Assembly: GCA_003331875.1 (NCBI GenBank) | Contig: QOQA01000018.1 | Span: 1-34,268 of the forward strand | Direction of reading: 5' to 3' | From: Cryomorphaceae bacterium | GTDB lineage: Bacteria > Bacteroidota > Bacteroidia > Flavobacteriales > Flavobacteriaceae | DNA: 34,268 nucleotides | Shown: one piece after another, positions 9,986-27,382 of the stretch | Layout: the number at the start of each line of letters is the position of its first letter | Numbering within the stretch: position 1 is the first letter of the stretch | Program-made: the position numbers and the translations under genes | The notes under the pieces: generated by a model | The model's database searches: none | Seen by the model: the letters and a program-made list of their open reading frames with translations, nothing else | Told to the model about the DNA's origin: nothing

Positions 9986-11236
9986 GTGCTCTCTACAAAA
10001 GAAAATTTCTACATTAATAAAGAAGAAAAATTTTGTTCAAACACTTACCACCCTCTTCCAGTTGTTCTGTCAAAAGGAAAGGGTGTTTATGTATGGGATG
10101 TTCATGGAAAAAAGTATTTTGACTTTCTTTCCTCATACTCTGCTGTAAACCAAGGTCATTGCAATCAGAAAATTTTAAATGCTTTTCTCAAACAGTCAAA
10201 AAAACTAACTCTTACGTCTAGAGCTTTTTACAACAATGAACTAGGAAACTCACTTGAATATATAACATCTATTTTTGGATATGATAAGATGCTTCCGATG
10301 AATTCTGGAGCTGAAGCTGTTGAAGCCGCTTTAAAAATCTGTAGAAAATGGGGTTATGAGGTAAAAAAAGTTGAAAAAAATAAAGCAAAAATTATTGTTT
10401 GTGATGGAAATTTTCATGGCAGAACTACAACAGTTATTTCATTTTCATCGTGTCAAGAAAGCAAAAAAAATTTTGGACCACTAACCCTTGGGTTTGAAAT
10501 AATTGAATATAATAATGTTGAAAAATTAGAGAAAGCTCTTAAAAAAGATAAAAATATTGTGGGGTTTTTGGTTGAGCCAATTCAGGGTGAGGGTGGTGTT
10601 GTAGTTCCTGATGATGGATATTTAAAAATCTCTAAAAAATTGTGTGAAAAATATAATGTATTATTTATAGCAGATGAAATCCAAACAGGTATCTGCAGAA
10701 CTGGAAAAATGTTGGCATGTGACCATGAAGAGATAAAACCAGATATTGTTATTCTTGGGAAAGCACTTTCAGGTGGTTTTTACCCTGTATCAGGTGTCCT
10801 CGCTAATAAGAAAATAATGGGTGTACTTAAAGTTGGGCAACATGGTTCAACATTTGGTGGAAATCCGTTAGGCTCTGTAGTAGCGAAAGAATCCATAAAG
10901 TTTGCAGTTAATAACGATTTATCAAATAATGCAACAATCATGGGAGATTTGTTTAGATCCAATTTAGAAAAACTTCGAGTTAAGCATAAATTAATAAAAA
11001 AAGTGAGGGGAAAGGGTTTATTGAACGCCATTGTACTTGATTGTGAGGAGAGTTCTGAGATACCTTGGCAATTATCAATAAAAATGCGCAATAATGGAGT
11101 TTTGGCAAAACCAACACAAGGAAATAAGATAAGATTTGCACCTCCTCTTATCATAACTAAAAAACAAATATTGAAGGCAATTCAGTTAATTGATACAAGT
11201 TTTTCAGAGCTTAAATATGAATATTCAGATAAATAG
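9986..11236 (+). CDS. rocD: Ornithine--oxo-acid aminotransferase (GTG start)
   Basis: Class III PLP aminotransferase: PMNSGAEAVEAALKICRKWGYE, GNFHGRTTTVISFS, FIADEIQTGICRTGK, ILGKALSGGFYPVSGVLA, HGSTFGGNPLGSVVA. These match ornithine aminotransferase. Confidence 0.92.
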   Translation: MLSTKENFYINKEEKFCSNTYHPLPVVLSKGKGVYVWDVHGKKYFDFLSSYSAVNQGHCNQKILNAFLKQSKKLTLTSRAFYNNELGNSLEYITSIFGYDKMLPMNSGAEAVEAALKICRKWGYEVKKVEKNKAKIIVCDGNFHGRTTTVISFSSCQESKKNFGPLTLGFEIIEYNNVEKLEKALKKDKNIVGFLVEPIQGEGGVVVPDDGYLKISKKLCEKYNVLFIADEIQTGICRTGKMLACDHEEIKPDIVILGKALSGGFYPVSGVLANKKIMGVLKVGQHGSTFGGNPLGSVVAKESIKFAVNNDLSNNATIMGDLFRSNLEKLRVKHKLIKKVRGKGLLNAIVLDCEESSEIPWQLSIKMRNNGVLAKPTQGNKIRFAPPLIITKKQILKAIQLIDTSFSELKYEYSDK

Positions 11237-12131
11237 TGAAACATCATCTCTCAAAGAAGTTCTAATTGGTAACTCTTATAATTTTAAATCACCATTAAAT
11301 TTTAGAGATTTATATGACCCAACTTCTTTAATAAACTATTTAAAAGGAAGGTATCCTATAAAGTTTAGGTTACAGAATCAACTTTCAAAACTTAAAAAAA
11401 CATTAATTAAAAATGGTGTCATAGTTCATGAACTTGATATTGTCAATACAAATCAGATTTTTTCTAGAGATCTTGGATTTGTAATTGATGACAAGTTTTT
11501 TTTGTCATCAATTATTCCAGATAGAGAGCATGAATTGAAAGGATTAAAATCAATATTGAAAAATATCAATAATATAGTTAGGCTTCCAAAAAGTGCGCAT
11601 ATTGAGGGAGGTGATGTTGTAGTTGATAAGAATCATGTTTTTATCGGATACTACGGTAAAAATGACTACAAAAATCAAATTACTGCAAGAACCAATAAAA
11701 AAGCAATTAGAATTATAAGAGATAAATTGAAAAATAAAGAAATTTTTCCAATTGAATTAATAAAATCCTCCACAAAACCTACCATTAACGCTCTTCATCT
11801 TGATTGCTGTTTTCAGCCAGTTTCCAAAAACAAAGCTGTAATATGTAAAGAAGCTTTTGCCAATAAAATTGAACTTAATTTTTTAATCTCATATTTTGGA
11901 GAACAAAATATTTTTGAGGTAACACTTAAAGAAATGTCAAGGCTTTACTGTAATTTCTTTTCAATAAATGAAAATACCGTTATAACTGACAAAAGATTTA
12001 CAAGATTAATTAGATGGTTTGATGAAATTGGAATGAAAGTTGAAAAGATTGACTTCTCAGAAATATCTAAACTTGGTGGTCTATTCAGGTGTTGTACATT
12101 ACCCCTCAAAAGAGAAAAAAATAAAAAATAA
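11217..12131 (+). CDS. Amidinotransferase/arginine deiminase-superfamily hydrolase (CtlX/DDAH-like)
   Basis: RDLGFVIDDKFFLSS, HIEGGDVVVDKNHVFIGY, ALHLDCCFQPVSKNKAVICKEAF and C-terminal GGLFRCCTLPLKRE with the expected catalytic Cys. Start likely ATG at 11217, overlapping rocD by 20 nt. Confidence 0.8.
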   Translation: MNIQINSETSSLKEVLIGNSYNFKSPLNFRDLYDPTSLINYLKGRYPIKFRLQNQLSKLKKTLIKNGVIVHELDIVNTNQIFSRDLGFVIDDKFFLSSIIPDREHELKGLKSILKNINNIVRLPKSAHIEGGDVVVDKNHVFIGYYGKNDYKNQITARTNKKAIRIIRDKLKNKEIFPIELIKSSTKPTINALHLDCCFQPVSKNKAVICKEAFANKIELNFLISYFGEQNIFEVTLKEMSRLYCNFFSINENTVITDKRFTRLIRWFDEIGMKVEKIDFSEISKLGGLFRCCTLPLKREKNKK

Positions 12132-12164: not shown

Positions 12165-12818
12165 GTGAAATATGTATTTTTATTCTTATCTTTTTTTGTT
12201 TATTCACAGCAACTTACATTACAAGACACAGGTGTTAATTTAGAATTTATAAAAAGAGAGTTATCTGCCCCATACCAGTCAAATACTGTAATTATCACAG
12301 GTAATAAATATTATTTTAAAAAATCCATTAATGCAACCTTAAAGTTATCAAATAACGAATCACCTGTTAATGTTGTTACTAATTATAATTTACTAGAACA
12401 GACCTTTGATGTTTTTGATGGAAGTGAGACTCTAAAGTTATTACCTAATAAAATTAAAAAGGTTATATTTCCAGATAAAGAGTTTGTTTCAATAGATAAT
12501 AAATTTTATGAAGCAATTGAGGTTAATGACAATTTTTCACTGCTTGCTGATACATACTTAGAGATATATTTTCCCGAGTATACGCCTGGGATTCAAGATA
12601 AACCTGATCCAAAATACAGGAAAAAGAACTCCGTCCTGTTGTACTACAAAGACAGGTTCAATTATGTAGAAAGAAGAAAAAGTTTTTTGATATCTATGTT
12701 CAATAAAAATATGGCAAAAGAAATCAATACTTTCATGAAAAAAAACAAGATTTCCCCACGTGATAATGATGAACTAAAATCTTTGTTTGTTGAATTTCAC
12801 TCTTCGCTAAACAGATAG
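12165..12818 (+). CDS. Hypothetical secreted protein
   Basis: GTG start at 12165 gives MKYVFLFLSFFVYSQQ, a good signal peptide. The ORF track uses TTG at 12141. No family recognised. Confidence 0.6.
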   Translation: MKYVFLFLSFFVYSQQLTLQDTGVNLEFIKRELSAPYQSNTVIITGNKYYFKKSINATLKLSNNESPVNVVTNYNLLEQTFDVFDGSETLKLLPNKIKKVIFPDKEFVSIDNKFYEAIEVNDNFSLLADTYLEIYFPEYTPGIQDKPDPKYRKKNSVLLYYKDRFNYVERRKSFLISMFNKNMAKEINTFMKKNKISPRDNDELKSLFVEFHSSLNR

Positions 12819-13421
12819 GTCTAAAAATAATTTAGCTCTTCGAGATACCTCTTTCCAGTCATTATTTTCAATCAATTTATTTTCAGCAATCCAAGACCCT
12901 CCAATTCCAATAATATCATCAGATTTCGCATATTTTGCAAAGTTATTCTGGGTAATACCACCAAGAACAACGTATTTTAAATTCAAGTGTTTAAATGGAC
13001 TATTTATTCTGTTTAAATAATCTACTCCACCTAAGTTTTCGGCAGGGAAAAACTTGAGTTTATTAATTCCATATTTGATAACAGTTGAAATATCTGTAGG
13101 TGTTGAGATTCCTGGAATAAAATTAAAATCCAAATCTGTGGATTTTTTAATAATTTGAGTATCAGTTGATGGTGATAGTCCAAAGTTTGCCCCCACATCT
13201 TGTGCAAAAATAAGATCCTCAACAGATAAAATTGTACCTATTCCTATATTCAAAGGAATTTGTGAATTAACTATTTTTTCAATAGATTTTTTTGAGGCAA
13301 AAGTTCTCAAAGCAATTTCTATATTTCTAATTCCAGAATCATATAAGCATTTGGCTAAATCAATTGCTTTTTTTTGATCGTGAATTACTAAAACTGGTAG
13401 TATCTTATTATCAATAAACAT
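12807..13421 (-). CDS. 2-dehydro-3-deoxy-6-phosphogluconate/galactonate-type class I aldolase
   Basis: GIGTILSVEDL, FIPGISTPTDI, Schiff-base Lys motif KLKFFPAENLGGV, VLGGIT and GIGGSWIA match the Eda family. Confidence 0.92.
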   Translation of the reverse strand: MFIDNKILPVLVIHDQKKAIDLAKCLYDSGIRNIEIALRTFASKKSIEKIVNSQIPLNIGIGTILSVEDLIFAQDVGANFGLSPSTDTQIIKKSTDLDFNFIPGISTPTDISTVIKYGINKLKFFPAENLGGVDYLNRINSPFKHLNLKYVVLGGITQNNFAKYAKSDDIIGIGGSWIAENKLIENNDWKEVSRRAKLFLDLSV

Positions 13422-14379
13422 TGTTATTTCTGAAGTTCTTTATTTCTAAGTCAGTAAATTTATTAATATCTCCTTTAAATGTATGTGCAATAGCAAATGA
13501 AGATGCAGCAAATGATATAATTTTTTCAATATCCCACCCAGAGATGACACCATGCATGGTAGCTCCAAGAAAAGAATCACCAGCTCCTACTCTGTCAATT
13601 TGATTGACTTCATATATTTCACTTCTATAATTATGAGATTCATAGCTTATGAGTGAAGCTAAATTATTTTCTTTACGTATTGTCATAGCAATCAGAGGGA
13701 TTTTGTAAATTTTTAAAATTTCACTTACAGTTTTCTCTGTTTCATCAAAAATAGTATCACTATTAGAATTAATGTCTAATTTTAAAATTTCTCTTATTGT
13801 ATTTGTGTTAGTAAATAAAAAATCAATGCTATTTAGTATTTTTTGAGTAAATACTCTACATTCACTCATAGACCATAAATTTTTTCTAAAATTTATATCA
13901 TAAATAATTTTAATATTATTACTTTTTGCGAGTTTTATCATGTTCAATATATTATCCTGACATTCGGATGATAAAGCTGGTGTAACACCCGAAATCAAAA
14001 GGTATTTTGTTTCTTCAAAAAAACTCAAAAGATGGTCTTTTGAAATTGTGTAAAGTGAAAAACTACTATTTGCCCGGTCATATGAAATTTTAGTGGGTTT
14101 GTTATTTTTGCCTGGTATTGTGTAATAAACACCCAATCTATTTTTATCAAAATTAAGGCAACAATCTATATTGAATGATTTTAGAAATGACTCTACATTT
14201 TTGCCCATAAAGTTATCTGGAAAAGACGATAAAAATTTACAATTATGTCCTCTTTGTCCTAAAAATGCAAGAGCATTAGCCTCACACCCACCATATCCAA
14301 TTGAATATGTATTTTTTAAGGATTCACTATCGGACGAAATTCTTAACATTATTTCGCCATAAGCAAGAATTTTATCCAT
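13411..14379 (-). CDS. 2-dehydro-3-deoxy-sugar-acid kinase, PfkB family (KdgK-like)
   Basis: GEIMLRIS start, GGCEANALAFLGQRG, and catalytic QIDRVGAGDSFLGATMHG. Confidence 0.88.
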   Translation of the reverse strand: MDKILAYGEIMLRISSDSESLKNTYSIGYGGCEANALAFLGQRGHNCKFLSSFPDNFMGKNVESFLKSFNIDCCLNFDKNRLGVYYTIPGKNNKPTKISYDRANSSFSLYTISKDHLLSFFEETKYLLISGVTPALSSECQDNILNMIKLAKSNNIKIIYDINFRKNLWSMSECRVFTQKILNSIDFLFTNTNTIREILKLDINSNSDTIFDETEKTVSEILKIYKIPLIAMTIRKENNLASLISYESHNYRSEIYEVNQIDRVGAGDSFLGATMHGVISGWDIEKIISFAASSFAIAHTFKGDINKFTDLEIKNFRNNNVY

Positions 14380-15380
14380 TATACTAAATTTCCTAGTCCA
14401 AGAACTATAGCAGATATTATCAAAACAACAAGCCCAGCAAGAAGCTTATTGAATGGTCCTTTAGCATTTTTCCATTCTCCAGCCCTGTATGCCCAAAAAT
14501 TACTAATTATTAAAGATAAACCTAGAAGAATTGGCCAGCCAATAACTGGTCCGATTTCACCTAACAGAGCTGCTCCTTGTCCATAAACACCAAGTGCCGC
14601 AAACCAACAAAAACCTGCTATAATTGCCCACTTATATGCATTTAATGATTTCTCTATACTGAAAGTCTTCCATGAATTATTTCTAATGAGCAAAAAGACA
14701 GAGTATCCAAAGTTCATCAAAAAAGCTCCCCAGAGTACCACAACCCAAGCTGCCAAGCTAGAATTTCTTGGAATTACCCCGAATTCAATTGCTGTTTGTG
14801 CAACTGGTGCAGCATTTGCAAATCCTACATTAAGTAAGGATGATAACAAACCACATGTAACAGCAATTAAAATTCCTTTGGTAATATTTTTAGACTTATT
14901 TGAGGTTTCAATTAATTTATCTCTGTCTATTCCTGCCTTTGCGGTTATAGCTACTCCAATTAGTGAAATGAATAAACCAGCTATTATGTAAGGAAATGAT
15001 GGTTGAGATGTCGCATTTTCAATTTGAAATAATGGAATAAGACTACCGGCTGATCCAGCGAGCCCCATAACAATACCCATAGTTAATGATAAACCTATAT
15101 ATGGAACACTAACACCAAACATAATACCCCCAACTCCCCAAGCAAAACCTAAAGCCATCGCCCAGAAAATTGCGTCACGAGGAGAACTCGATATTATCTC
15201 AAGTAGATCAGGAATTGCAATGTATGCCCATATCATAGGAAATAATATCATTGCAACTAAAACATGAATGACCCACCATGATTCCCATGACATTGGATTC
15301 ATGTATTTCATTCCTAAACCAAAAGTTCCCTGAAAGAAACTGGCAAAAATTAAAAGTAAAAAAGGTAAAAATAATTCCAT
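14379..15380 (-). CDS. RhaT-like (L-rhamnose/H+ symporter family) transporter
   Basis: 10-TM protein with ASFFQGTFGLGMKYMNPMSWESWW, ALGFAWGVGGIMFGVSVPYIGLSLTMGI and GFCWFAALGVYGQGAALLGEIGPVIGWPI, typical of RhaT. Confidence 0.85.
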   Translation of the reverse strand: MELFLPFLLLIFASFFQGTFGLGMKYMNPMSWESWWVIHVLVAMILFPMIWAYIAIPDLLEIISSSPRDAIFWAMALGFAWGVGGIMFGVSVPYIGLSLTMGIVMGLAGSAGSLIPLFQIENATSQPSFPYIIAGLFISLIGVAITAKAGIDRDKLIETSNKSKNITKGILIAVTCGLLSSLLNVGFANAAPVAQTAIEFGVIPRNSSLAAWVVVLWGAFLMNFGYSVFLLIRNNSWKTFSIEKSLNAYKWAIIAGFCWFAALGVYGQGAALLGEIGPVIGWPILLGLSLIISNFWAYRAGEWKNAKGPFNKLLAGLVVLIISAIVLGLGNLV

Positions 15381-15382
15381 AA

Positions 15383-16825
15383 TTATTGTTTTGTTATAGT
15401 TATACGTTTTTTAATTAAGTAATCATCAAGTGCAAGCTCAGAGCAATCATGACCAACTCCACTTTCCTTAATTCCACCATGTGGAAGATAAATATCATAC
15501 TTAATACCATTTATTTGAACTTCTCCAAAATCAAGCTCATTAATAAAGCGATTTATTCTTTCTTTATTTTTTGTAAATAAGTAGGATGCTAAACCATATT
15601 TAGTATTGTTCGCAGATTTAATAACATCATCTTCTGTTTTAAAAGAAATTAGTGAAGCAACAGGACCAAAAATCTCTTCATGGAAAATATTCATTTTTTC
15701 AGTTACGCCGCTAATTACCGTAGGTTGTATCCAATTCCCAACATTCAATTTATCTAGCGATTTTCCACCATACTGAAGTTTTGCACCATCATCAATTGTC
15801 TCTTTAATTAATCCCAAAACTCTTTCTTTTGATTTGTTTGTGATCATTGGACCAATTTCATAATCCAGTTGTTTATTGAAACCTGTTTTCAATTGCTTTG
15901 CTTTAGAAATCATTTTATCCATAAACTCGTCGAAAATTTTCTCTTGAATAAAAAAACGATTAGCTGCAACGCATATTTGACCACAATTTCCAAATTTTAT
16001 AGCCGCACCAATATTTGATGCTAGTTCAATATCTGCATCATCAAAAACAATAAATGGTGCATTTCCACCGAGTTCCATGCTGTATTTTTTTATAGATGTT
16101 GATGAATCAGAGATAACTCTTTTGGCAGTTTCAGTTGACCCAATCATTGTAATTAATTTTGGTAAAGTACTCTTTGATAAAGTTGTAGCAACCTCACTTG
16201 GTTCTCCACATAAAATATTCACAACCCCTCTTGGAAAATTAATTTCATGAAGAATTTCACCAATAATATATAACGATACTGGAGATAACTCTGAGGGCTT
16301 TAAAATAATACTACATCCAGATGCAAGAGCTGGACCTAGCTTAAATCCAGCATTAAGCAATGGAAAATTCCAAGCCAAATATGCAACTACAACCCCAATT
16401 GGCTTTGAAACTAAATGATGGCTGTGAGTTCCATCAGGATCAATAATTTCTTTATCCTTTTGATAATCTTCTATAATATCTGAGTAGTATTTTAAACTGT
16501 TAGTGATTGATTCTACATCCTCCGCAGTTGCGTTGTATGGTTTTCCCATTTCATAGGAAATTGATTTTCTTAAAATCTCTTCTTTTTCTAAAATTTTATC
16601 TCTCAATATGAGCATCCACTCTTTTCTTTTCTTAACGGGTGTTTTTGACCAAGTATCAAATCCTTGCTCTGCTGATTTCAAAGCTCGTTCAGAATCCAAA
16701 CTATTTGCCCATGAAAGTGTAGCAATCCTCTCATCATTTAAAGGACTGTAAATTTCTTTTGTTACATTATTTACAGAGGAAACTAGTTCTCCCTCAATAT
16801 ACATTTTAAGTTGTCCAAAATTCAT
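15383..16825 (-). CDS. NAD(P)-dependent aldehyde dehydrogenase
   Basis: WNFPLLNAGFKLGPALASGCSIILKPSELSP, MELGGNAPFIVFDDAD (general base Glu), FGNCGQICVAANRFF (catalytic Cys), EEIFGPVASLISF. Confidence 0.93.
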   Translation of the reverse strand: MNFGQLKMYIEGELVSSVNNVTKEIYSPLNDERIATLSWANSLDSERALKSAEQGFDTWSKTPVKKRKEWMLILRDKILEKEEILRKSISYEMGKPYNATAEDVESITNSLKYYSDIIEDYQKDKEIIDPDGTHSHHLVSKPIGVVVAYLAWNFPLLNAGFKLGPALASGCSIILKPSELSPVSLYIIGEILHEINFPRGVVNILCGEPSEVATTLSKSTLPKLITMIGSTETAKRVISDSSTSIKKYSMELGGNAPFIVFDDADIELASNIGAAIKFGNCGQICVAANRFFIQEKIFDEFMDKMISKAKQLKTGFNKQLDYEIGPMITNKSKERVLGLIKETIDDGAKLQYGGKSLDKLNVGNWIQPTVISGVTEKMNIFHEEIFGPVASLISFKTEDDVIKSANNTKYGLASYLFTKNKERINRFINELDFGEVQINGIKYDIYLPHGGIKESGVGHDCSELALDDYLIKKRITITKQ

Positions 16826-16827
16826 CT

Positions 16828-17955
16828 TTAAATTTTAATTTCATTTAAATAATTCTCATCAACATCAATCCCTAAACCAGGAAGTGTATTAGTCTTTATA
16901 TATCCATCTTTCATCAAGATATTATTTTTTATAATATTTTCTCGAATTTTATTTTCAGTTCTATCGTATTCAATGTATGCATCATCTTGATAGAGTCTTC
17001 CTGGTATGGGTTCAAGATTTGATATGAAATTAATTGCTGCAAAAAATGCAATTCCTGAACCCCATGTGTGAGGAATTACTTTCACACCTTTTGTAGATGA
17101 AAGTGACGTTATACGTTTTGCTTCAGTCAAACCACCACAGGAACAAATATCCATTTGCAAAAAATCAATACATTTTTTATCCAAAAGCTTCTGAAAACCA
17201 TATCTCAAATATTCACATTCTCCAGCTGCAACTGGTATTTGGGACTTCGCCTTGAAATCTGAATATTGATCATAGAATTCAGGTGACAGTGGCTCTTCAA
17301 ACCATTTGATTTCCATGTTTTCCAATCGTTTTGAAAGTTTTAAAGCCTCATCATATGAATATGCGTGATTGGCATCAATCATAAGCTCAATATCAAAACC
17401 AATTGCATTTCTGACTGCTTTTACATTTTTTTCATCATCATCTATATTTAATCCAACTTTCATTTTGATTGACTTGAAACCATCATTTACATATCCAATA
17501 GCTTCATCACATAAATTTTGGATGAGGGTTTTAGAATCTGAAAAATAAAGACCAGTTGCATAGGGTCTTATTTTTTCTCTGTAAGAACCACCTAAAAGGG
17601 TAGAAACAGGTAATTTATGGTACTTTCCTTTAATATCCCATATTGCAACATCAATTGCACTAATTGAAGAGAGAAAAACCCCTGATCTACCATAATCATG
17701 AACTCTTCGAAATAGCGTCGACCAAATCACATCAGATTCCAATGGATTCATTCCAATTATATTCTGCTTTATATAATCAATGCATTCTTTAACAACTGGT
17801 GCAGGTCCATATGCTTCTCCCCATCCAATTAATCCATTGTCACAAATAATTTTAACAATACAAATTTTTCGATTACTATATTCCCATTGCGAAAAGAAAA
17901 ACTCTTTTTCAAGCTCCTCAGTTAAAACATATGGAATTATCTCAGATATTTTCAT
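16828..17955 (-). CDS. Enolase-superfamily (mandelate racemase/MLE group) sugar-acid dehydratase or cycloisomerase
   Basis: KMKVG (KxK), metal ligands in LMIDANHAY, KWFEEPLSPE and AAGECEY, LQMDICSCGGLTEAKRI, and VIPHTWGSGIAFFAA (His of the D-H dyad). Confidence 0.9.
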   Translation of the reverse strand: MKISEIIPYVLTEELEKEFFFSQWEYSNRKICIVKIICDNGLIGWGEAYGPAPVVKECIDYIKQNIIGMNPLESDVIWSTLFRRVHDYGRSGVFLSSISAIDVAIWDIKGKYHKLPVSTLLGGSYREKIRPYATGLYFSDSKTLIQNLCDEAIGYVNDGFKSIKMKVGLNIDDDEKNVKAVRNAIGFDIELMIDANHAYSYDEALKLSKRLENMEIKWFEEPLSPEFYDQYSDFKAKSQIPVAAGECEYLRYGFQKLLDKKCIDFLQMDICSCGGLTEAKRITSLSSTKGVKVIPHTWGSGIAFFAAINFISNLEPIPGRLYQDDAYIEYDRTENKIRENIIKNNILMKDGYIKTNTLPGLGIDVDENYLNEIKI

Positions 17956-17956
17956 T

Positions 17957-19582
17957 TTAAAACCCTTGCCAGAGACCTTTTGAATCTCCTTTAATATAAT
18001 CTATATTAATTCTACCTTTTTTTGAATCTGGAATTAACCAATATAAATTATCGAATATATAGTTAGACCCTACTAAGTCGTTAGCCTGTAAATGACTATG
18101 TAATGATATATTGCCTCTTTTCTTATATACCATATATTCAGGAATCAAAATATTATTTTTTGGTTGTATCAAAACTTCTTTGGGCCAATGGTTTTTTTTA
18201 AAAATATTGTTTTCAAAAAAAACATTTTCAATTTCTGACCCTCCACCAGGGTCAGGCTTATACTGATCACCCAAAACCATTACAGGATCATTCTCAAAAT
18301 AAAAAACGTTATTAGCCACAAAAACTCCGCTTGATGCTTTATCAACAGCTATCTTTGGAATAATATCTTTACTAACATATACTTTATTTCCGTAAATATA
18401 AGAGTTAAAAGGCCCGTTTCTTTCTTGTCCACGTCCTATGTAACCACTCAACCAAAAAGTTTTTCCCTCTTGAAATGCACCATTTTCTCCCTTTACTCTG
18501 TGGCCATCATTAATACTTACATTGTATCTGTATGAACAATTGTAATTGTTTCCCAAAATTTCAATAAAACCACCTGCATTATTTCTGCTCAAGTTTCTTT
18601 CAACAATCACATCATTACAGTTAAAATCAATATGACATCCTGCGGAATCTGCAGGACCATTAGCATTTTGAAATTTATTTCCATAAATGACAGCATAGGA
18701 GGTTCCCCATGTCCAAAGTCCACTACCCCTTCCCCATTTTCTACTATCGTCAAATGAACCAGAATAGTTGATGTCATTTCCTTTAGCAAATAAATTTCTG
18801 GTACTGTTAAAAACCATTCCAGGTCCACCTGTTCGTAAAACAGTATTATCAAATACTTGAAGGTTTTTGAACTGTTTTTCTCTTTTTCCAATAAAACGAA
18901 TGGCAGTATGAGATATGTTTTTGAATTGAGAGTTATTAATTGATATGTTCTCCAAATTTCCAGATTCTGAAAGATTTAATACTCGAATTCCCCATCCATA
19001 ACTTTTGGTTCCGTTTGGTGTACGAACTTCACTTTCATTTCTTTCATAACCAGGATCTTCATAAAAAATATCTCTAATAATTACTGAGGATACAGTTAAG
19101 CTGTCATGCACTTTGTTATTAGTAACTAAATATAAAATCCCTACCCTTAAATCAGTTTTTAATTTTTTGTGCAAAAATTCATTCGCACCACCACCATCTG
19201 CAGTAATTTCAAGATTCCTAATTTTTATGTTTGATGAGTTTTCTATAAAAATAGATGCTATTTTGCCTTTTGAATTTATCGTAGGCAACTTAGTATTTCC
19301 ATCAATTTTATAATTAGATATTTCAATTCCATCTTCATTTATCAGATCAATTGTGTTTAGAAAAGTTGAGCCGTTGGCCAATAATATTTTATCACCATTT
19401 GATAAATTAATATTATTTAAAAAATCAAGACTTTTAAAAGGTTTTTCTTTTGTTCCAAGATTTGAATTATCCCCTGTTACTGAGTTGAAGTGATAACTAT
19501 ATCCAGCATCATTTTTATCTCCGTATTGAATTTGAGAGCATGAGCTAAAGACTAAAGCAATAATTAATAAAAGCCTTTTCAT
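17957..19582 (-). CDS. Right-handed parallel beta-helix lipoprotein, candidate carbohydrate-active enzyme
   Basis: Lipobox LVFSSC at the N-terminus. Repeated NIxIxNxxF-type coils. Shares block DSRKWGRGSGLWTW...GPADSAGCHIDFNC...NLSRNNAGGFIEILG with the neighbouring gene. Confidence 0.8.
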   Translation of the reverse strand: MKRLLLIIALVFSSCSQIQYGDKNDAGYSYHFNSVTGDNSNLGTKEKPFKSLDFLNNINLSNGDKILLANGSTFLNTIDLINEDGIEISNYKIDGNTKLPTINSKGKIASIFIENSSNIKIRNLEITADGGGANEFLHKKLKTDLRVGILYLVTNNKVHDSLTVSSVIIRDIFYEDPGYERNESEVRTPNGTKSYGWGIRVLNLSESGNLENISINNSQFKNISHTAIRFIGKREKQFKNLQVFDNTVLRTGGPGMVFNSTRNLFAKGNDINYSGSFDDSRKWGRGSGLWTWGTSYAVIYGNKFQNANGPADSAGCHIDFNCNDVIVERNLSRNNAGGFIEILGNNYNCSYRYNVSINDGHRVKGENGAFQEGKTFWLSGYIGRGQERNGPFNSYIYGNKVYVSKDIIPKIAVDKASSGVFVANNVFYFENDPVMVLGDQYKPDPGGGSEIENVFFENNIFKKNHWPKEVLIQPKNNILIPEYMVYKKRGNISLHSHLQANDLVGSNYIFDNLYWLIPDSKKGRINIDYIKGDSKGLWQGF

Positions 19583-21343
19583 TTAATTACCATTATATGC
19601 TCCGATATTTGGTTTTGAATCACTTGTTACTGTGTTCCCAAAATAGTCCCTTCCTCCATTATTTTGAATATAATTTTTTACATCAGAACTTCCATTTATT
19701 ATAAATCCAGAATTAAGGGCAGGACTTCCTGATTTTAATTTATAATCATTTGCAGAATTACCACCTGCATTGGAAAGTTGTGGATCTGTACTCAATAAAT
19801 CACTAGGATCGTGATTATAGGTGTAATTTGAGTCTATAACAACATTTCCGTAATACATGTTGTTACGAAATGAATTAAACTGTTCCGTATCATTCCTAAT
19901 GTCCATAGTTAACTTGGCTTGATCACTTACATAAATGATGTTGTTGTATACATACGTATATTCAGCTTCTCTGAAAAAGATTTCAATGTGACTCATAGGA
20001 TTGTTGTTGACATCATTTATACTGGGAACAAATACTGTATTGTTGTATATGAAGTTATTATTGGATGTCACTCTTCTGTTTTCCCCTGCAAAATCAGAAA
20101 TCCAAAAAACATTTCCATGATTTTGACCTGTTCGCTTACCGTCTGCAATACTGATATTATAACGATACCCACACATTTCATTTTCACCCAAAATTTCCAC
20201 AAAACCCCCAAAGTTATTTCTACTTAGGTTGTATTGCATGACCACTCTTTCACAACCCCAGTCAATATGAGCACCATATGAATCTTGTGGTCCATAGGCA
20301 TTCTCAAAAATATTTTCTTGAATAAGTGCATCATTACATGTGTAAGTCCACAAACCACTTCCCCTATTCCACATCCTGCTATCCTCATCAGAACCTGAAC
20401 CATCAAAATGGTTATCTTCAACTAGAACATTCTTGCATCTTGCCAATACAATTCCAGACCCACCAGTATTTGTAAACTTTGAATTTTTAATTGTAATATT
20501 TCTGTGATAAAACTCTGAATCAGCCGGGGACATTCTGTTAACAATATGAATGCCGTAATGACCAGTGAGGGAAATATCAACATTATCAATTTCAATATTT
20601 GAATAGTAATTTTTTTGACTGTTATTATATGATTCAAATCTTATTCCATAACCTTGGTGTTCCTTTGTTGCATCTCCAGGGGTTGGATATACATTTGATA
20701 TCTTGACATTTTTAATATTAATATTAGATATATCTTTTCCATCACCAAATCGAAGAACTAAAACACCAAAACGCTCATCTTGTCCAGTTCTATCAGAATT
20801 ATGCATTAGTTTGTTGGATCCGTCAGATTTTCGATGAGATGCCTCATTTGTAAGTTCTATATTTGAAATTGTAATATTTTCAATATTCTCTAAAAAAACT
20901 GAAGCTTGATAACCATTTCCATCTATGACGGGAAGATCTCCAGATCCATAACTATCTGCGGATATATGATTGTCTTCTGATCCAGAGCCACGTATTTTAA
21001 AATAACCTTTCCAAGTGTCTCCTCTTTTAAACTTTATTATATCTCCTGCATTAAACGTAATACTATTTATCTTTCCTAGATTTTTAAATGCATTTTCCTC
21101 ACTTTTTCCATCATTTGAATCATCCCCCGAACTAAAACTTATATAGTATGTAGTGTTACCATCGGAAGTTGAATCTGTATAATCATCTGGGTCTGAACCA
21201 TCGTCATCAGAATTATTTCCTCCGCCATTATTTCCTCCATTATTTCCTCCGTTATTTCCTCCATTATCGCCATCACCAGAACCACTGTCAGAGGAGCACG
21301 ATATAACAAAAAGAGAAAGTATCAAAATAAAAATTTTTTTCAT
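19583..21343 (-). CDS. Right-handed parallel beta-helix lipoprotein, paralog of the neighbouring gene
   Basis: Lipobox FVISC followed by a DG/GNN-rich tether, beta-helix coils, and block EDSRMWNRGSGLWTY...GPQDSYGAHIDWGC...NLSRNNFGGFVEILG. Confidence 0.82.
   Translation of the reverse strand: MKKIFILILSLFVISCSSDSGSGDGDNGGNNGGNNGGNNGGGNNSDDDGSDPDDYTDSTSDGNTTYYISFSSGDDSNDGKSEENAFKNLGKINSITFNAGDIIKFKRGDTWKGYFKIRGSGSEDNHISADSYGSGDLPVIDGNGYQASVFLENIENITISNIELTNEASHRKSDGSNKLMHNSDRTGQDERFGVLVLRFGDGKDISNINIKNVKISNVYPTPGDATKEHQGYGIRFESYNNSQKNYYSNIEIDNVDISLTGHYGIHIVNRMSPADSEFYHRNITIKNSKFTNTGGSGIVLARCKNVLVEDNHFDGSGSDEDSRMWNRGSGLWTYTCNDALIQENIFENAYGPQDSYGAHIDWGCERVVMQYNLSRNNFGGFVEILGENEMCGYRYNISIADGKRTGQNHGNVFWISDFAGENRRVTSNNNFIYNNTVFVPSINDVNNNPMSHIEIFFREAEYTYVYNNIIYVSDQAKLTMDIRNDTEQFNSFRNNMYYGNVVIDSNYTYNHDPSDLLSTDPQLSNAGGNSANDYKLKSGSPALNSGFIINGSSDVKNYIQNNGGRDYFGNTVTSDSKPNIGAYNGN
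21212..21262 (-). repeat. 12-bp tandem repeat (ATTATTTCCTCC-type, 4 near-identical copies) encoding the GGNN linker
   Basis: ATTATTTCCTCC-GCC-ATTATTTCCTCC-ATTATTTCCTCC-GTTATTTCCTCC on the + strand. Confidence 0.85.
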
Positions 21344-21405: not shown

Positions 21406-23067
21406 ATGTCAAAAATCATAGTACTTATTCTTTCCTTATTTTTTGCTTTTGGATGCAACTCTAATACTCAAACTAAGCCAAATATTGTTTTAATTATGAC
21501 TGACGATTTAAATGATTACAATGAAGATCTAATGGGCCATCCACAGATAATTTCTCCAAATATCAAAAAATTAGCTGATTCTGGTGTATCATTTATTAAT
21601 GCATATTCAAATGATCCAATGTGTGGACCATCAAGATCAAGTATGATCACAGGTGTATATCCGCATAATTCATCAAATTTTTGGCAGAAACCATGGTTTA
21701 ATAATAATGTTTTAAATAATACCAAAACAATGATGGAGAAATTTAAAGAGAATGGATATTATGTTGTAGGTAGTGGAAAAATTTTACACCATAACAAGAA
21801 AGAATTATGGTCTGAATTCGAACATGATGCGGACTACGGACCTGTAGCATATAAGGGACTTCGTAAAAAAGGAAAAAGAGGAATTGCTCATCCTGATGTT
21901 GCAAAACCCTTTTCTGAAATCGGACAAATAGACGGTTCATTTGGTCCTTTTAAAAATATTTCAAGTTTAGAGAAAGATGGTGAAAAGATTACATGGGCTT
22001 ATGGAGGTTCTAGGGGATACAAAGAGTTAAAATATATAAATGAGGATGACAGAGATTTGACACCTGATGAAATCAATGCTCAATGGGCTGAGGATAAAAT
22101 CAATGAGCTAGCCGAATCAGACAAAGATGCTCCTTTCTTTTTGGCTGTTGGGTTTTTAAGACCACATACACCACTTATTGCTCCACAAAAGTATTTTGAT
22201 ATGTATCCACTTGAAAAGATTGAGCTTGCAAATATTTTAGAAAATGATATGAATGATACATTTTTAAATTATGTTGAAACCAATAATGTTAAAAAGTCCG
22301 AGGGTGGTGAAAACAATTCAACACTTACTCACAAACAGCTCAGTAAAAGATCTGTTGAAATGTATTATAAACTTAAAGAATCGTATAAAAAACCCGATGA
22401 GGGATTAAAAAGATTTACTCAAGCTTATCTTGCTTGTGTAACTGCTGTTGATGATAATATTGGACAAGTAGTCAATGCAATTGATAACTCTAAGTTTAAA
22501 GACAATACAATCATTGTTTTTGTCAGTGACCACGGATGGACCATGGGAGAAAAAAACCATGTATACAAAAATTCTTTATGGGAAGAAAGTACAAGGGTTC
22601 CTTTGACAATTAGAGCTCCCGGCCTTACAGAACCTAATTCAAAAGTTAATCATCCCGTATCTCTCATTGATGTCTACCCTACTTTATTGGAATTGGCTGG
22701 CTTGGATAACAATACAATCAAAAATGATAAAGGAAAATCACTGGATGGCTTTAGCTTGAAGCCGTTCCTAAAAGATCCTAATACAAAAAAATGGGATGGA
22801 CCTGATGGAGCCTTGTCTGTTGTTTACAGCTCAGATCTGAATGAAAATACACCCTCAAATCACCATTATTCTCTAAGAACGAAAGATTGGAGGTACATAA
22901 TCTATGACTCAGGAAAAGAAGAGCTTTATAACAATTCTATGGACCCGAAAGAATGGAATAACATTATTTATGAAAAAACTCATCCACAAAGAGATGAGAT
23001 GGTAAAAATCCTAAAAGAAATAACACATCCAATGGTACCAAACGGCCTAAAGAAATTACAATTATGA
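21406..23067 (+). CDS. Type I (formylglycine-dependent) sulfatase, lipoprotein, iduronate-2-sulfatase-like (possibly SulfAtlas S1_7)
   Basis: Lipobox FAFGC, PNIVLIMTDDLND, NDPMCGPSRSSMITG (CxPSR), GFLRPHTPLIAPQKYFDMYP, VFVSDHGWTMGEKNHVYKNSLWEESTRVPL. The subfamily call is a judgement by eye. Confidence 0.9.
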   Translation: MSKIIVLILSLFFAFGCNSNTQTKPNIVLIMTDDLNDYNEDLMGHPQIISPNIKKLADSGVSFINAYSNDPMCGPSRSSMITGVYPHNSSNFWQKPWFNNNVLNNTKTMMEKFKENGYYVVGSGKILHHNKKELWSEFEHDADYGPVAYKGLRKKGKRGIAHPDVAKPFSEIGQIDGSFGPFKNISSLEKDGEKITWAYGGSRGYKELKYINEDDRDLTPDEINAQWAEDKINELAESDKDAPFFLAVGFLRPHTPLIAPQKYFDMYPLEKIELANILENDMNDTFLNYVETNNVKKSEGGENNSTLTHKQLSKRSVEMYYKLKESYKKPDEGLKRFTQAYLACVTAVDDNIGQVVNAIDNSKFKDNTIIVFVSDHGWTMGEKNHVYKNSLWEESTRVPLTIRAPGLTEPNSKVNHPVSLIDVYPTLLELAGLDNNTIKNDKGKSLDGFSLKPFLKDPNTKKWDGPDGALSVVYSSDLNENTPSNHHYSLRTKDWRYIIYDSGKEELYNNSMDPKEWNNIIYEKTHPQRDEMVKILKEITHPMVPNGLKKLQL

Positions 23068-26000
23068 GAAAAATTCTGTTATTATTATTTATATTAATCA
23101 GTTTTACAATTGAATCTCAAGAAAGATTTAACAATCAAATGCTCAATGGTGAATGGGAAATTATATATGATGAAAATAATGAGGGAAAGAAAAATAAATT
23201 TCATTCAAATGATGGTTTTAATGATGGATTGATTGAAAAAATTTATGTACCAAGTGTTTGGGAGAGATACAAGAAGGATTACGAGGGTGTTGTTTATTAC
23301 AGAACAAAGTTTAATGTTTCCAAATCTAGAGAAAACAAAAAAATTCACTTAAACTTTAATGCTTCAAATTATATAACTGAAGTATATGTAAATGATAACT
23401 CAATTGGATTTCATGAAGGTGGTTTCTCCCCATTTTCATTTAATATTGAGCACGTTGTTGATTTTGATAATGCGAATACATTAATAGTAAAAGTTATGGG
23501 TCCAATAACCATACAGGATAAAGTTATTGACGGTATTGGACAAATGGAAACTCCACAATGGAGGGGTTCTTACACAGGCGGAATATGGCAAGATGTTTTT
23601 CTATCATTTACAGGACAAACGCATATTGAAGATGTTTTTATCATTGCGAATTATGAAAATGGAAATGTAGAATTGAAAAATAAAATAGTAAATGGTCTAG
23701 GAGATGGAAAATATAGGTACAGGTATTCGATCAATAATTTAAATGATAAAAATAAAAATACTTTAAAGCACAAAGACATTATTATTAAAAATTCCAACCT
23801 AGTTGTTGATGTTAATTTAGATCACAAGGTTAAAAACCACAAACTTTGGTCACCAGATGATCCTCAGTTATACCTATTTGAGGTATATCTAGATAAAATA
23901 ATAGAAAATGAGCAAGGATTATCATATGAACAACTTGATCATGTTACTGAAAAATTTGGTTTTAGGGAGTTTACAGTTAAAAACGAACGATTTTATTTGA
24001 ACGGTAATCCAATTTATCTCAAAGCAGCATTTTTTGAGGGATTATACCCGATAAAACTATCCTTTCCCGACTCTTATGATATGATGATTAAAGAAATTTT
24101 ATTAGCCAAAAAAGCTGGTTTCAACATGATAAGACCCTGGAGGAAACCACCTCCAAAAGAATGGCTTCATTTAGCAGATTCTATTGGGGTACTAACAGTG
24201 GGAAGTATGGCAATAGAGTGTATGGATATGCCGATAGAATCCCCTTATCTTCCACAAAGGGTTGAAAATGAAATTACAGAAGCAGTTCTCAGAGACAGAA
24301 ATCATCCATCAATTGTTCAGTGGGAATTGTTCAATGAAATTAGAAGACCAGTTCTTGCTAATATGTTAAAACCCATGTCCTTGAAAGCAAGAGAACTTGA
24401 TCCTACTAGGATGATTCTTGATGAGTCTGGAGGATGGGCATACGGAGCTAACCTTTACTTACCTTTTTCAAACAAAGCTTTTAAATTTAATGATATCCAC
24501 AATTACCCTGGTCCAAACATCACAAACAATAAATTTGATGGTTTTTTAACAATCGGTAATACCAAAGAAAAAAATATTGAATTAGGACTAAATGCAAGAA
24601 CACCGGGAAGAAATGTAGTACCTGATATATCATCTTATGTTTCTGAAATTGGATATGGAAGTTTACCTGATTTGGAAAATAATGAGATTTTGTTTAGAGA
24701 AAAAGGAAACCCCATAACCTATCCTTACATATACCACATTAATTACAATAAGGATATCAAAAAAGCTTTAAAGGAAACGGGTTTGGATAAAATTTTTAAA
24801 TCTGCTACTGATTTCTACCTAAAACAGCAAGAAATTCATGGAATTGCTAATAAAAGAATGCTCGAAGCCATTAGGTCCAACCCCACTGTTATTGGTTACT
24901 GTGTACATGCTCTAACAGCCGGAGATTGGATTATTGGTGCGGGATTGCTTGATCTTTGGAGAAATCCAAAAGGGAAAGCATACGATTTAACAAAAGAGGC
25001 TAACGAGGATAGAATTATTGTGATTAGGACTGATAAGAGAAATTATTACCAAGGTGAATCTGTCAAAACAGAAATTAAAGGCATAAACGATAAAGTTGAG
25101 TTAAATGGCAACCTTTCTATCAAAATAAAATCTAAAAAAAACAATAAGGTCTTATATGAAAATAATATAAAAACAAAGCTTAAAAATGGAATATCTCTCC
25201 TACATAACAGCAATGTAGAATTAGAGAAAGGAAATTACTTAATTGAAGCAAATTTTAATTCACAAAAAACTAAATTATTTTCAACTATTGAATTTAGTAT
25301 TTATGATTTAAAATCAAAACAAACTGTAAAAAAAATAGCTCTTGCCAATAAGGACAATAAACTAAAAAAATTCCTAATTGATAAAGGGTTTGAGGTAGTA
25401 AATTTTGATCAGAAACTTAATGTCAATATTCCTGTAATGTTCAGTAATGAAAAAGCAGAATTTATTAATTCAAGTGATGGAAACGTTGTTAAAAATGAAG
25501 ATAATCAAGATAACCTTTTATCACCCAGTGGGCCTTCATCAAATACAAAAAACAGCAAACTAGAGTCAAGAATCAATGAGTTAAATAGTTTTGTGCAAAG
25601 AGGAGGAAACGTCATATATCTTTCTGTGCCTGGGAAAACTCGTGTAAGGAAAGGACCAAACCTTACTTTTATTGACGAAGGAGAAAGTTATTTGCCAGTT
25701 AAGTTTGTAAAAAATATTTCTCAAGGATTATGGGATGGAATTCTACATATTAATTCTAATCATAAAATTTTTAAAAATCTTCCGACTGATGTCAATATGA
25801 GTAATACATATGAGAACATAGCTCCAACTATAACAATGAGGGGGATTGAAGCAGAAAATATAGTTAACACGATAGCATTTGACAGAATTCCTAACGGAAA
25901 TATCATGAAAAGAAACTATATTGGATCTGGTGATGTGTGGTCAGGATCAGATCTCTCTGTTGTGAAGCATGGAAAGGGAAAAATTATTCTGTCTACACTA

Positions 26001-26075
26001 AAATTAATTGAAAATCTAGGATATGACCCTGTTGCTGAAATTGTTTTAATGAATATGATAAATTATACAGATTAA
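23064..26075 (+). CDS. Glycoside hydrolase family 2 (beta-galactosidase/glucuronidase-like) with extra C-terminal domain
   Basis: Signal peptide, jelly-roll N-terminus (YVPSVWERYKKDYEGVVYYRTKF, NASNYITEVYVNDNSIGFHEGGFSPF), acid/base QWELFNEIRRP, putative nucleophile YVSEIGYGS. Confidence 0.87.
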   Translation: MRKILLLLFILISFTIESQERFNNQMLNGEWEIIYDENNEGKKNKFHSNDGFNDGLIEKIYVPSVWERYKKDYEGVVYYRTKFNVSKSRENKKIHLNFNASNYITEVYVNDNSIGFHEGGFSPFSFNIEHVVDFDNANTLIVKVMGPITIQDKVIDGIGQMETPQWRGSYTGGIWQDVFLSFTGQTHIEDVFIIANYENGNVELKNKIVNGLGDGKYRYRYSINNLNDKNKNTLKHKDIIIKNSNLVVDVNLDHKVKNHKLWSPDDPQLYLFEVYLDKIIENEQGLSYEQLDHVTEKFGFREFTVKNERFYLNGNPIYLKAAFFEGLYPIKLSFPDSYDMMIKEILLAKKAGFNMIRPWRKPPPKEWLHLADSIGVLTVGSMAIECMDMPIESPYLPQRVENEITEAVLRDRNHPSIVQWELFNEIRRPVLANMLKPMSLKARELDPTRMILDESGGWAYGANLYLPFSNKAFKFNDIHNYPGPNITNNKFDGFLTIGNTKEKNIELGLNARTPGRNVVPDISSYVSEIGYGSLPDLENNEILFREKGNPITYPYIYHINYNKDIKKALKETGLDKIFKSATDFYLKQQEIHGIANKRMLEAIRSNPTVIGYCVHALTAGDWIIGAGLLDLWRNPKGKAYDLTKEANEDRIIVIRTDKRNYYQGESVKTEIKGINDKVELNGNLSIKIKSKKNNKVLYENNIKTKLKNGISLLHNSNVELEKGNYLIEANFNSQKTKLFSTIEFSIYDLKSKQTVKKIALANKDNKLKKFLIDKGFEVVNFDQKLNVNIPVMFSNEKAEFINSSDGNVVKNEDNQDNLLSPSGPSSNTKNSKLESRINELNSFVQRGGNVIYLSVPGKTRVRKGPNLTFIDEGESYLPVKFVKNISQGLWDGILHINSNHKIFKNLPTDVNMSNTYENIAPTITMRGIEAENIVNTIAFDRIPNGNIMKRNYIGSGDVWSGSDLSVVKHGKGKIILSTLKLIENLGYDPVAEIVLMNMINYTD

Positions 26076-26770
26076 TGGAAACTCAAAACTATATAATCGA
26101 ATTTATGTCGGATGAATGGATTAGGAATACAATCATTTCTTTTTTTTCCATCTTGATCATCCTTTTTATATCAAATAATTTTTTTAATAAAGAACAAAAG
26201 TTAAAAATTGTAAAAATCCTCTCTTTATTGATGATTATTATGACAGTTACTGACCACTCTAGAAATATTATGAATGGTCTTTGGAATGTTTCAGAGAATC
26301 TTCCACTTCAATTATGTGGTTTAACAAATTTAATTGCCTGCTCTGTTTTATTTACTAAACTTAATAAAAGAGTATTCGAGTTTTTTTATTATGCAGGGAT
26401 TATTGGTGGAATTCAAGCTTTTTTAACTCCTCAAATAAACAATTTTGATGGTACAAATTTTGAATATATATCATATCATTCCTCTCATGGCGGAATAATA
26501 TTAATTCCAATTTTTCTATACCTAAATTTAAATCACGCAATTACAAAATTTTCATGGTTTAGAGTCTGGATTTATTTAAATATAATTATTGCTTTCATAA
26601 TTCCGTTAAATTTCCAAATTGACTCCAATTATATGTATCTAGCATCTCCGCCAAATGTTGATAATCCACTTTTAATTGGTGAATGGCCATATTACATATT
26701 TTTTTGGGAGATAATAATGATTCTTTTCACATATACACTGTATGTTGTATCAACAAAAAAGTTTGTCTAA
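26075..26770 (+). CDS. YwaF/TIGR02206-like integral membrane protein
   Basis: LPLQLCGLTNLIACSVL, YAGIIGGIQAFLTP, YHSSHGGIILIPIFLY, SNYMYLASPP and GEWPYYIFFWEI match that family's pattern. Confidence 0.75.
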   Translation: METQNYIIEFMSDEWIRNTIISFFSILIILFISNNFFNKEQKLKIVKILSLLMIIMTVTDHSRNIMNGLWNVSENLPLQLCGLTNLIACSVLFTKLNKRVFEFFYYAGIIGGIQAFLTPQINNFDGTNFEYISYHSSHGGIILIPIFLYLNLNHAITKFSWFRVWIYLNIIIAFIIPLNFQIDSNYMYLASPPNVDNPLLIGEWPYYIFFWEIIMILFTYTLYVVSTKKFV

Positions 26771-27382
26771 ATGAAATCCCCAATTGAAGTTTTTTCAGAT
26801 TGGGCAATATCTGGTAAAGATGATGGAATGAAGGAAAATCATTTTAAGCCTGTAATGAAAATGATAGAGTTATTTGAAGACAAGTATAAAAATCCGTGCA
26901 TAATTGATGCAGGATGCGGAAATGGTTGGTTAATTCGCCATTTGTATGAAAAAAAAAAATACAAAAATGTTACAGGTGTTGATGGGTCAAAATCAATGAT
27001 TGCAAAAGCAAAGAATCTAGATCCTAAAAATAATTATATATGCTCTGAACTTGATTTATGGAAACCTGATGATAAAGCTGATGTTGTTATGTCAATGGAA
27101 GTCATTTACTACTTTAAAAAACCTCAGAAAATCATTAAACATATATTTGATAATTGGATTAAAAAAAACGGTGTTTTTATCATGGGTATTGATTTTTATT
27201 TAGAAAATAAAAAATGTCATGATTGGAAAGAAAAAACTGGAGTTAATACGATGGAACTTTTCAGTTCAGCAATCTGGGTTAAATTTTTTGAAAAAAGTGG
27301 TTTTAAAAATGTAAACAAGTACTTCTTTAATGGAGGGCAAGATTGGAAAGGAACATTAGTTGTTGAGGGATTTAAATTCTAA
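26771..27382 (+). CDS. Class I SAM-dependent methyltransferase
   Basis: Motif I CIIDAGCGNGWLIRHLYE, VTGVDGSKSMIAKAK, and VVMSMEVIYYFKKPQKIIKHI. Confidence 0.85.
   Translation: MKSPIEVFSDWAISGKDDGMKENHFKPVMKMIELFEDKYKNPCIIDAGCGNGWLIRHLYEKKKYKNVTGVDGSKSMIAKAKNLDPKNNYICSELDLWKPDDKADVVMSMEVIYYFKKPQKIIKHIFDNWIKKNGVFIMGIDFYLENKKCHDWKEKTGVNTMELFSSAIWVKFFEKSGFKNVNKYFFNGGQDWKGTLVVEGFKF

Follow-up and report, generated by a model that had tools for sequence, protein, structure and literature searches.

How do bacteria set free 3,6-anhydro-D-galactose (D-AnG) from its parent glycan if they carry neither of the glycoside hydrolase (GH) families GH127 and GH129? This acknowledged gap (PMC6923384) is raised by a stretch of 34,268 nucleotides from a Cryomorphaceae bacterium (GenBank assembly GCA_003331875.1, contig QOQA01000018.1, positions 1 to 34,268; hereafter the window), in which genes resembling the dau genes for D-AnG catabolism adjoin two genes for β-helix lipoproteins. 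The locus is very probably a D-AnG catabolic operon, namely a DauABCD variant whose glycan cleavage would fall to two GH136-like proteins (BH1 and BH2) together with an S1-type sulfatase and a GH2-type enzyme. The pathway itself is already known; the new part is the variant locus, the most interesting portion of which lies just outside the block singled out by an earlier reading of this DNA (the original prediction).

That prediction had described a five-gene, DauABCD-like block at 12807-17955, and exactly five full-length open reading frames, all on the minus strand and each far above the Pfam cut-off, are indeed found there, including the aldehyde dehydrogenase (ALDH), enolase-superfamily enzyme, kinase, and aldolase that it had listed (Pfam and NCBIfam). 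Its boundaries, however, were too narrow, as the two β-helix lipoprotein genes continue the same run. The operon comprises seven genes from 21343 to 12807 on the minus strand, spaced by at most 2 bp (consecutive genes overlap by 11 or 1 nt or are set apart by 2, 2, 1, or 0 nt), with the BH1 and BH2 genes at its 5′ start, and the S1 sulfatase and GH2 genes face it divergently across 62 bp. This operon gene order is conserved across the genus and in further genera. In line with the earlier claim, neither a lactonase nor a sugar dehydrogenase of the short-chain dehydrogenase/reductase (SDR) or GFO type was seen among the genes of the window.

Family comparisons strongly support the assignment of the enolase-superfamily enzyme to DauB and of the ALDH to DauA. 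Among solved structures, the former is closest to 5olc (438 bits, 51% identity), that is, Zobellia DauB (ZGAL_3156), which turns 3,6-anhydro-D-galactonate into 2-keto-3-deoxy-D-galactonate (PMC5698469), followed by the galactaro-lactone cycloisomerase (GCI) AtGCI (4ggb; 299 bits, 37% identity), the Vibrio 3,6-anhydro-L-galactonate cycloisomerase (5xd7; 143 bits), and rhamnonate dehydratases (123 bits); the NCBIfam L-rhamnonate dehydratase model gave 147 bits. A tree with 85 rows places it in one group with 5olc and DauB homologues from Bacteroidota (support 91/86), to which AtGCI does not belong. The residues described for DauB, comprising catalytic Lys166 and His296, the metal ligands Asp194, Glu220, and Glu246, and Asp87 and Trp298 of the pocket (PMC5698469), are all kept in the alignment with 5olc, and the motif FSQW recurs in 81 and GECEY in 80 of the 82 homologues. 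The ALDH carries the active-site motifs GQICV and ELGGN and is nearest to 6pnu (482 bits, 47% identity; next structure 317 bits), the Pseudoalteromonas DauA with activity on D-AnG (PMC6923384). It is, moreover, regularly paired with dauB (75 loci contain the ALDH cluster and 81 the dauB cluster). The D-AnG reading put forward in the original prediction hence gains support from those of its proposed comparisons that can be made by sequence: the enolase lies far closer to Zobellia DauB than to rhamnonate dehydratases or the Vibrio enzyme, and the ALDH next to a characterised DauA rather than to lactaldehyde dehydrogenases.

By analogy, DauA would oxidise D-AnG to 3,6-anhydro-D-galactonate, DauB would open the anhydro ring to give 2-keto-3-deoxy-D-galactonate, a PfkB-type kinase would phosphorylate the latter, and an aldolase would cleave the phosphorylated product into pyruvate and glyceraldehyde-3-phosphate. 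These steps have been demonstrated for Zobellia DauA-D; for the enzymes of the window, we infer them from family placement. The remaining gene of the block, a RhaT-type symporter that may take up anhydrogalactose or a small oligosaccharide, had not been used by the original prediction. It supports the D-AnG reading, because such symporters flank dauB in Zobellia, where the drug/metabolite transporter (DMT)-type sugar/H+ symporter ZGAL_3157 adjoins it (PMC5698469), and in Flammeovirga. Catabolism of L-rhamnose or L-fucose, an idea arising from the RhaT-like transporter, was rejected in view of the placement of the enolase and ALDH and of the RhaT-type genes beside dauB elsewhere.

What, then, are the two β-helix proteins? 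BH1 and BH2 share 32% identity, both start with lipoprotein signals, and family libraries yield at most a weak N-terminal GH136 match. Their structural models are of fair to good quality (predicted local distance difference test (pLDDT) 76 and predicted template modelling score (pTM) 0.82 for BH1; pLDDT 80 and pTM 0.83 for BH2), and in fold searches of the PDB ranks 1-6 are all occupied by GH136 over the full length (BH1: 1.6e-19, next family 1.6e-6; BH2: 7.6e-15, next family 3e-6), which places the next fold family about nine to thirteen orders of magnitude behind. A profile search with the β-helix family also recovers GH136 by sequence at 1.6e-50, and identity to the GH136 lacto-N-biosidases amounts to 17-22%. 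With these enzymes (LnbX 5gqc, ErLnb136 6kqs, TnX 7v6m, and BsaX 7v6i), BH1 and BH2 share a full-length β-helix and a pair of aspartates seven residues apart: D354/D361 of BH1 and D312/D319 of BH2 align with the acid/base D568 and the nucleophile D575 of ErLnb136 (PMC7335108), whose printed chain is numbered two off the paper, an offset with which W548, D568, and D575 all agree. The pair is invariant in 24 of 24 aligned family members (BH1 D354/D361), and Tyr334 of BH1 and Trp292 of BH2 align with the substrate-stacking Trp548 of GH136. In contrast to the lacto-N-biosidases, a histidine takes the place of the middle aspartate of the D-A-D motif, and the context is that of a marine sulfated galactan instead of milk oligosaccharides.

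GH136 enzymes are exo-acting and retaining, and release disaccharides by cleaving β-linkages (PMC8106489), which is why a disaccharide-releasing role is favoured for the pair. In this scenario, the putatively lipid-anchored BH1 and BH2, the S1 sulfatase, and the GH2 enzyme would probably process a D-AnG-containing sulfated galactan, with the sulfatase and GH2 enzyme trimming it and the GH136-like pair cutting β-linkages from the non-reducing end, most likely to release disaccharides of the D-AnG-α-1,3-Gal type, as GH167 does in Pseudoalteromonas. Tentatively, BH1 and BH2 may even be the first GH136-like enzymes acting on D-AnG-containing sulfated galactans and replace the GH127 route in streamlined open-ocean flavobacteria, a suggestion we put forward with less than even confidence. 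In any case, the locus provides two candidate proteins that are amenable to expression, have a predicted pair of catalytic residues, and share an operon with the D-AnG catabolic enzymes.

An alternative scenario is that BH1 and/or BH2 replace GH127/GH129 directly and constitute the missing α-1,3-(3,6-anhydro)-D-galactosidase. In its favour, no GH127 was found in the genus, the β-helix genes stand in one operon with dauB, and when 80 dauB loci of named records are compared, 20 contain β-helix genes, 20 contain GH127, and not one contains both (p about 0.002, a value that overstates the evidence, as most β-helix loci stem from one genus). Furthermore, the likewise β-helical GH110 cuts the α-1,3-galactose of λ-carrageenan (PMC7939477). 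However, the nearest fold is that of the retaining, β-linkage-cleaving GH136, GH110 matches are at least ten orders of magnitude weaker, and GH16 genes are missing from the β-helix loci as well (0 of 20, as compared to 14 of 20 GH127 loci), so that a one-for-one exchange for GH127 is not required; we consider this role unlikely. Assignment of BH1 and BH2 as GH110-like α-galactosidases had been tried on the basis of a weak match (E 0.37) and was rejected, as the fold search puts GH136 far ahead. A GH78-like (α/α)6 enzyme was also considered as the missing anhydrogalactosidase and discarded, being present in only one of the 23 genus genomes (G016).

Could a conventional Zobellia-type carrageenan system simply be hidden in unassembled parts of the genomes? 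Completeness of the 23 genus genomes is only 55-87%, and although Pfam revealed no GH129 match in the genomes searched, the control genomes gave none either. For GH127, positive controls worked in other dau-bearing genomes, and this family, to which dagA of the core carrageenan utilisation system (dauABCD, dagA, cgsB, cgrA, and cgtAB; PMC5698469) belongs, was found in 0 of the 23 genus genomes, including all 16 that bear dau genes, nor was it detected in a 93%-complete relative (G026) with the same operon, where the controls also worked. A standard GH127/GH129-dependent system escaping assembly is very improbable.

The distribution of the β-helix genes also ties them to the dau genes. Of the 23 genus genomes, 16 contain dauB, and these 16 all have a BH1 orthologue as well, which is otherwise found in only one partial genome (Fisher p about 7e-5, a value exaggerated by common ancestry and by the physical linkage of the genes). 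Across 400 sampled genomes of the family, 35 carry dauB and four have strong BH1 matches, each of which lies no more than about 3 kb away from dauB. Three genus members (G002, G008, and G016) carry a dauB from a distant clade (55-57% identity; loci L058, 12012-13187; L059, 9898-11067; L062; and L127) that lies beside GH2 and outside the operon, which suggests gene replacement. BH1-BH2 nevertheless still lead the run of dauA, transporter, kinase, and aldolase genes in these genomes (complete in L058 and L060), and the link between β-helix and dau genes hence survives both the replacement of dauB and an altered neighbourhood. The β-helix loci are scattered over several parts of the DauB tree (four state changes), including a Flavobacteriaceae metagenome-assembled genome (MAG; L146), and all 20 β-helix-bearing dau loci contain an S1 sulfatase gene. 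As a side observation, BH2 is present as two open frames with an internal TGA in G022 (contig C8; L067, 7811-9409), possibly a pseudogene or a sequencing error.

Other readings concern the enolase. It might belong to an oxidative pathway for galactose, uronates, or deoxysugars, acting as a sugar-acid dehydratase or as a galactaro-lactone cycloisomerase, given that AtGCI is its second-best solved relative and that many dehydratases of the superfamily match weakly. The gap in identity between 5olc and AtGCI, the regular pairing with a DauA-type ALDH, and a window lacking a uronate or sugar 1-dehydrogenase as well as a lactonase leave little room for such a function, which we regard as a slight chance at best. 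The pathway for the L form of the sugar requires two further oxidoreductases for 2-keto-3-deoxy-L-galactonate. Neither was seen in the window and DauB is far nearer to the D-form than to the Vibrio L-form enzyme, so that an operon for 3,6-anhydro-L-galactose from agar or porphyran is hardly credible, despite the same reaction logic and the distant homology of the Vibrio L-form enzymes (PMC5698469).

Several observations nevertheless weigh against a D-AnG operon with a GH136-like pair. Gut-bacterial GH136 enzymes need a helical partner subunit, GH136I (PMC7335108), and no domain or adjacent gene of this type was matched by Pfam or NCBIfam, with no search directed at GH136I having been made. Further members of the same β-helix family are encoded at other sites of these genomes where dau genes are lacking, and the family is therefore not D-AnG-specific. 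Identity of the kinase and aldolase to their counterparts in other dau loci amounts to only 29-42%, the aldolase fits the model for 2-keto-3-deoxy-6-phosphogluconate (KDPG) aldolase (Eda) better than that for the galactonate counterpart (KDPGal), and neither appears to be a strict orthologue of its Zobellia equivalent. Finally, the window contains neither a carrageenase nor a SusC/D pair. The link to carrageenan catabolism drawn in the original prediction is thus upheld for D-AnG as the sugar, while it is less certain that the polymer is carrageenan, because the locus is devoid of carrageenase and GH127.

A second branch of the GH136-like family (36% identical) is found genus-wide without dau genes (G000, contig C17, 84-1517 (L051); L054, 5847-7865; L055, 7548-9560) and in several genomes no more than about 15 kb separate it from a GH16 gene.

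The lower pathway deserves a closer look. The kinase is of the PfkB type, unlike the DgoK type of the textbook dau cluster, and matches the NCBIfam models for 2-keto-3-deoxygluconate (KDG) and 2-keto-3-deoxygalactonate (KDGal) kinases, however below their cut-off. Across the dauB loci, DgoK is present in 10 of the 20 GH127-bearing but in none of the 20 β-helix-bearing ones. The aldolase shares a sequence cluster with those encoded in other dau loci; its identity of 29-42% refers to loci from beyond the genus. An attempt to predict the stereospecificity of the aldolase from the residue that precedes the GG[IV] motif was abandoned without any claim, since this residue varies with kinase type and no support for such a rule was found in the literature consulted. 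Within the genus, dauC and dauD (12807-14379) share 45-82% identity as compared to 87-97% for dauB (replaced copies apart), despite their location in one operon.

Three known systems help to place the locus. With the cluster ZGAL_3145-3159 of Zobellia galactanivorans (PMC5698469) it shares the DauA and DauB types, a kinase, an aldolase, a DMT/RhaT-type symporter, and an S1 sulfatase; in contrast to that cluster, it lacks GH127, a detectable GH129, GH16/GH82, and an AraC regulator, and instead features the PfkB-type kinase and two GH136-like lipoproteins within the operon. Neither the AraC regulator nor the SusCD of the core carrageenan system is encoded in the window, while SusCD adjoins the cluster in G008 and G016. 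The locus of Pseudoalteromonas PS47 (PMC6923384) has in common DauA (6pnu) and the lack of GH127, and is without GH129 too, despite D-AnG catabolism. Its D-AnG-releasing enzyme was stated to be unknown (PMC6923384), and it encodes GH16, GH167, and unsolved β-propeller candidates where the window has GH136-like β-helix proteins. On plasmid p1 of Flammeovirga kamogawensis (NZ_CP076130), RhaT, DauB, DauA, kinase, and aldolase genes stand in a row as in the window, with two GH127-type genes, GH2, sulfatases, and SusD upstream; unlike the window, this cluster contains a kinase named DgoK and no β-helix gene.

The source genome and its genus are small (0.9-1.5 Mb, incomplete), and many named counterparts are AG- single-cell genomes and MED-G MAGs, by which naming the genus appears to stem from the open tropical ocean. 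If so, D-AnG use would be common among flavobacteria of the open ocean, a surprising result, as this sugar is known chiefly as a constituent of carrageenan. Red seaweed is no obvious source there, and the question becomes which planktonic glycan holds D-AnG; action of the GH136-like pair on D-AnG galactans, if true, would imply a planktonic source of such glycans away from red macroalgae.

Features of the D-AnG locus in the window, with assignments as predicted from the basis given
Feature	Coordinates	Strand	Basis
DauD-like KDPG/KHG aldolase, 204 aa	12807..13421	-	PF01081 162 bits; TIGR01182 175 bits, over cut-off
DauC-like 2-keto-3-deoxy-acid kinase, PfkB type, 322 aa	13411..14379	-	PF00294 97 bits
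RhaT/DMT-type sugar-proton symporter, 333 aa	14379..15380	-	PF06379 and RhaT models
DauA, predicted 3,6-anhydro-D-galactose dehydrogenase, 480 aa	15383..16825	-	PF00171 452 bits; closest to 6pnu/6pop DauA
DauB, predicted 3,6-anhydro-D-galactonate cycloisomerase, 375 aa	16828..17955	-	MR/MLE enolase superfamily PF13378/PF02746; closest to 5olc
BH2, GH136-like β-helix lipoprotein, candidate glycosidase, 541 aa	17957..19582	-	fold model; lipobox in sequence
BH2 D312 to D319, proposed acid/base and nucleophile	18626..18649	-	alignment to ErLnb136 D568/D575
BH1, GH136-like β-helix lipoprotein, candidate glycosidase, 586 aa	19583..21343	-	fold model; profile search
BH1 D354 to D361, proposed acid/base and nucleophile	20261..20284	-	spacing of 7 as in ErLnb136 D568/D575
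S1-type sulfatase lipoprotein, 553 aa	21406..23067	+	PF00884; CGPSR formylglycine motif
GH2-type β-galactosidase/glucuronidase-like protein, 1003 aa, signal peptide	23064..26075	+	PF02836, PF00703, PF02837

Regarding the divergent genes, the solved structures most similar to the sulfatase are mixed, and no subfamily was assigned. The GH2 gene adjoins dau genes in other genera too; in Maribacter, Carboxylicivirga, and several MAGs, a GH2 gene followed by one for a GH78-like (α/α)6 protein lies near the dau genes (L083, L084, L085, L086, L087, L091, L095, L099, L127, and L147). SusD genes were found in every genus genome. In G016 (contig C4; L152) and G008 (contig C10; L155), the dau/β-helix cluster is immediately next to a large polysaccharide utilisation locus that encodes SusCD and six S1 sulfatases, while the other genus members have SusCD relatives elsewhere in the genome, together with a LacZ-type GH2. 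On the far side of the operon, the genes for a class-III aminotransferase and an arginine-deiminase/DDAH-like protein overlap (9986-12131) and look like an arginine/ornithine pair without relation to the sugar operon. After GH2, genes for a TMEM164-like membrane acyltransferase and a methyltransferase follow at 26075-27382, an order that is kept in related genera.

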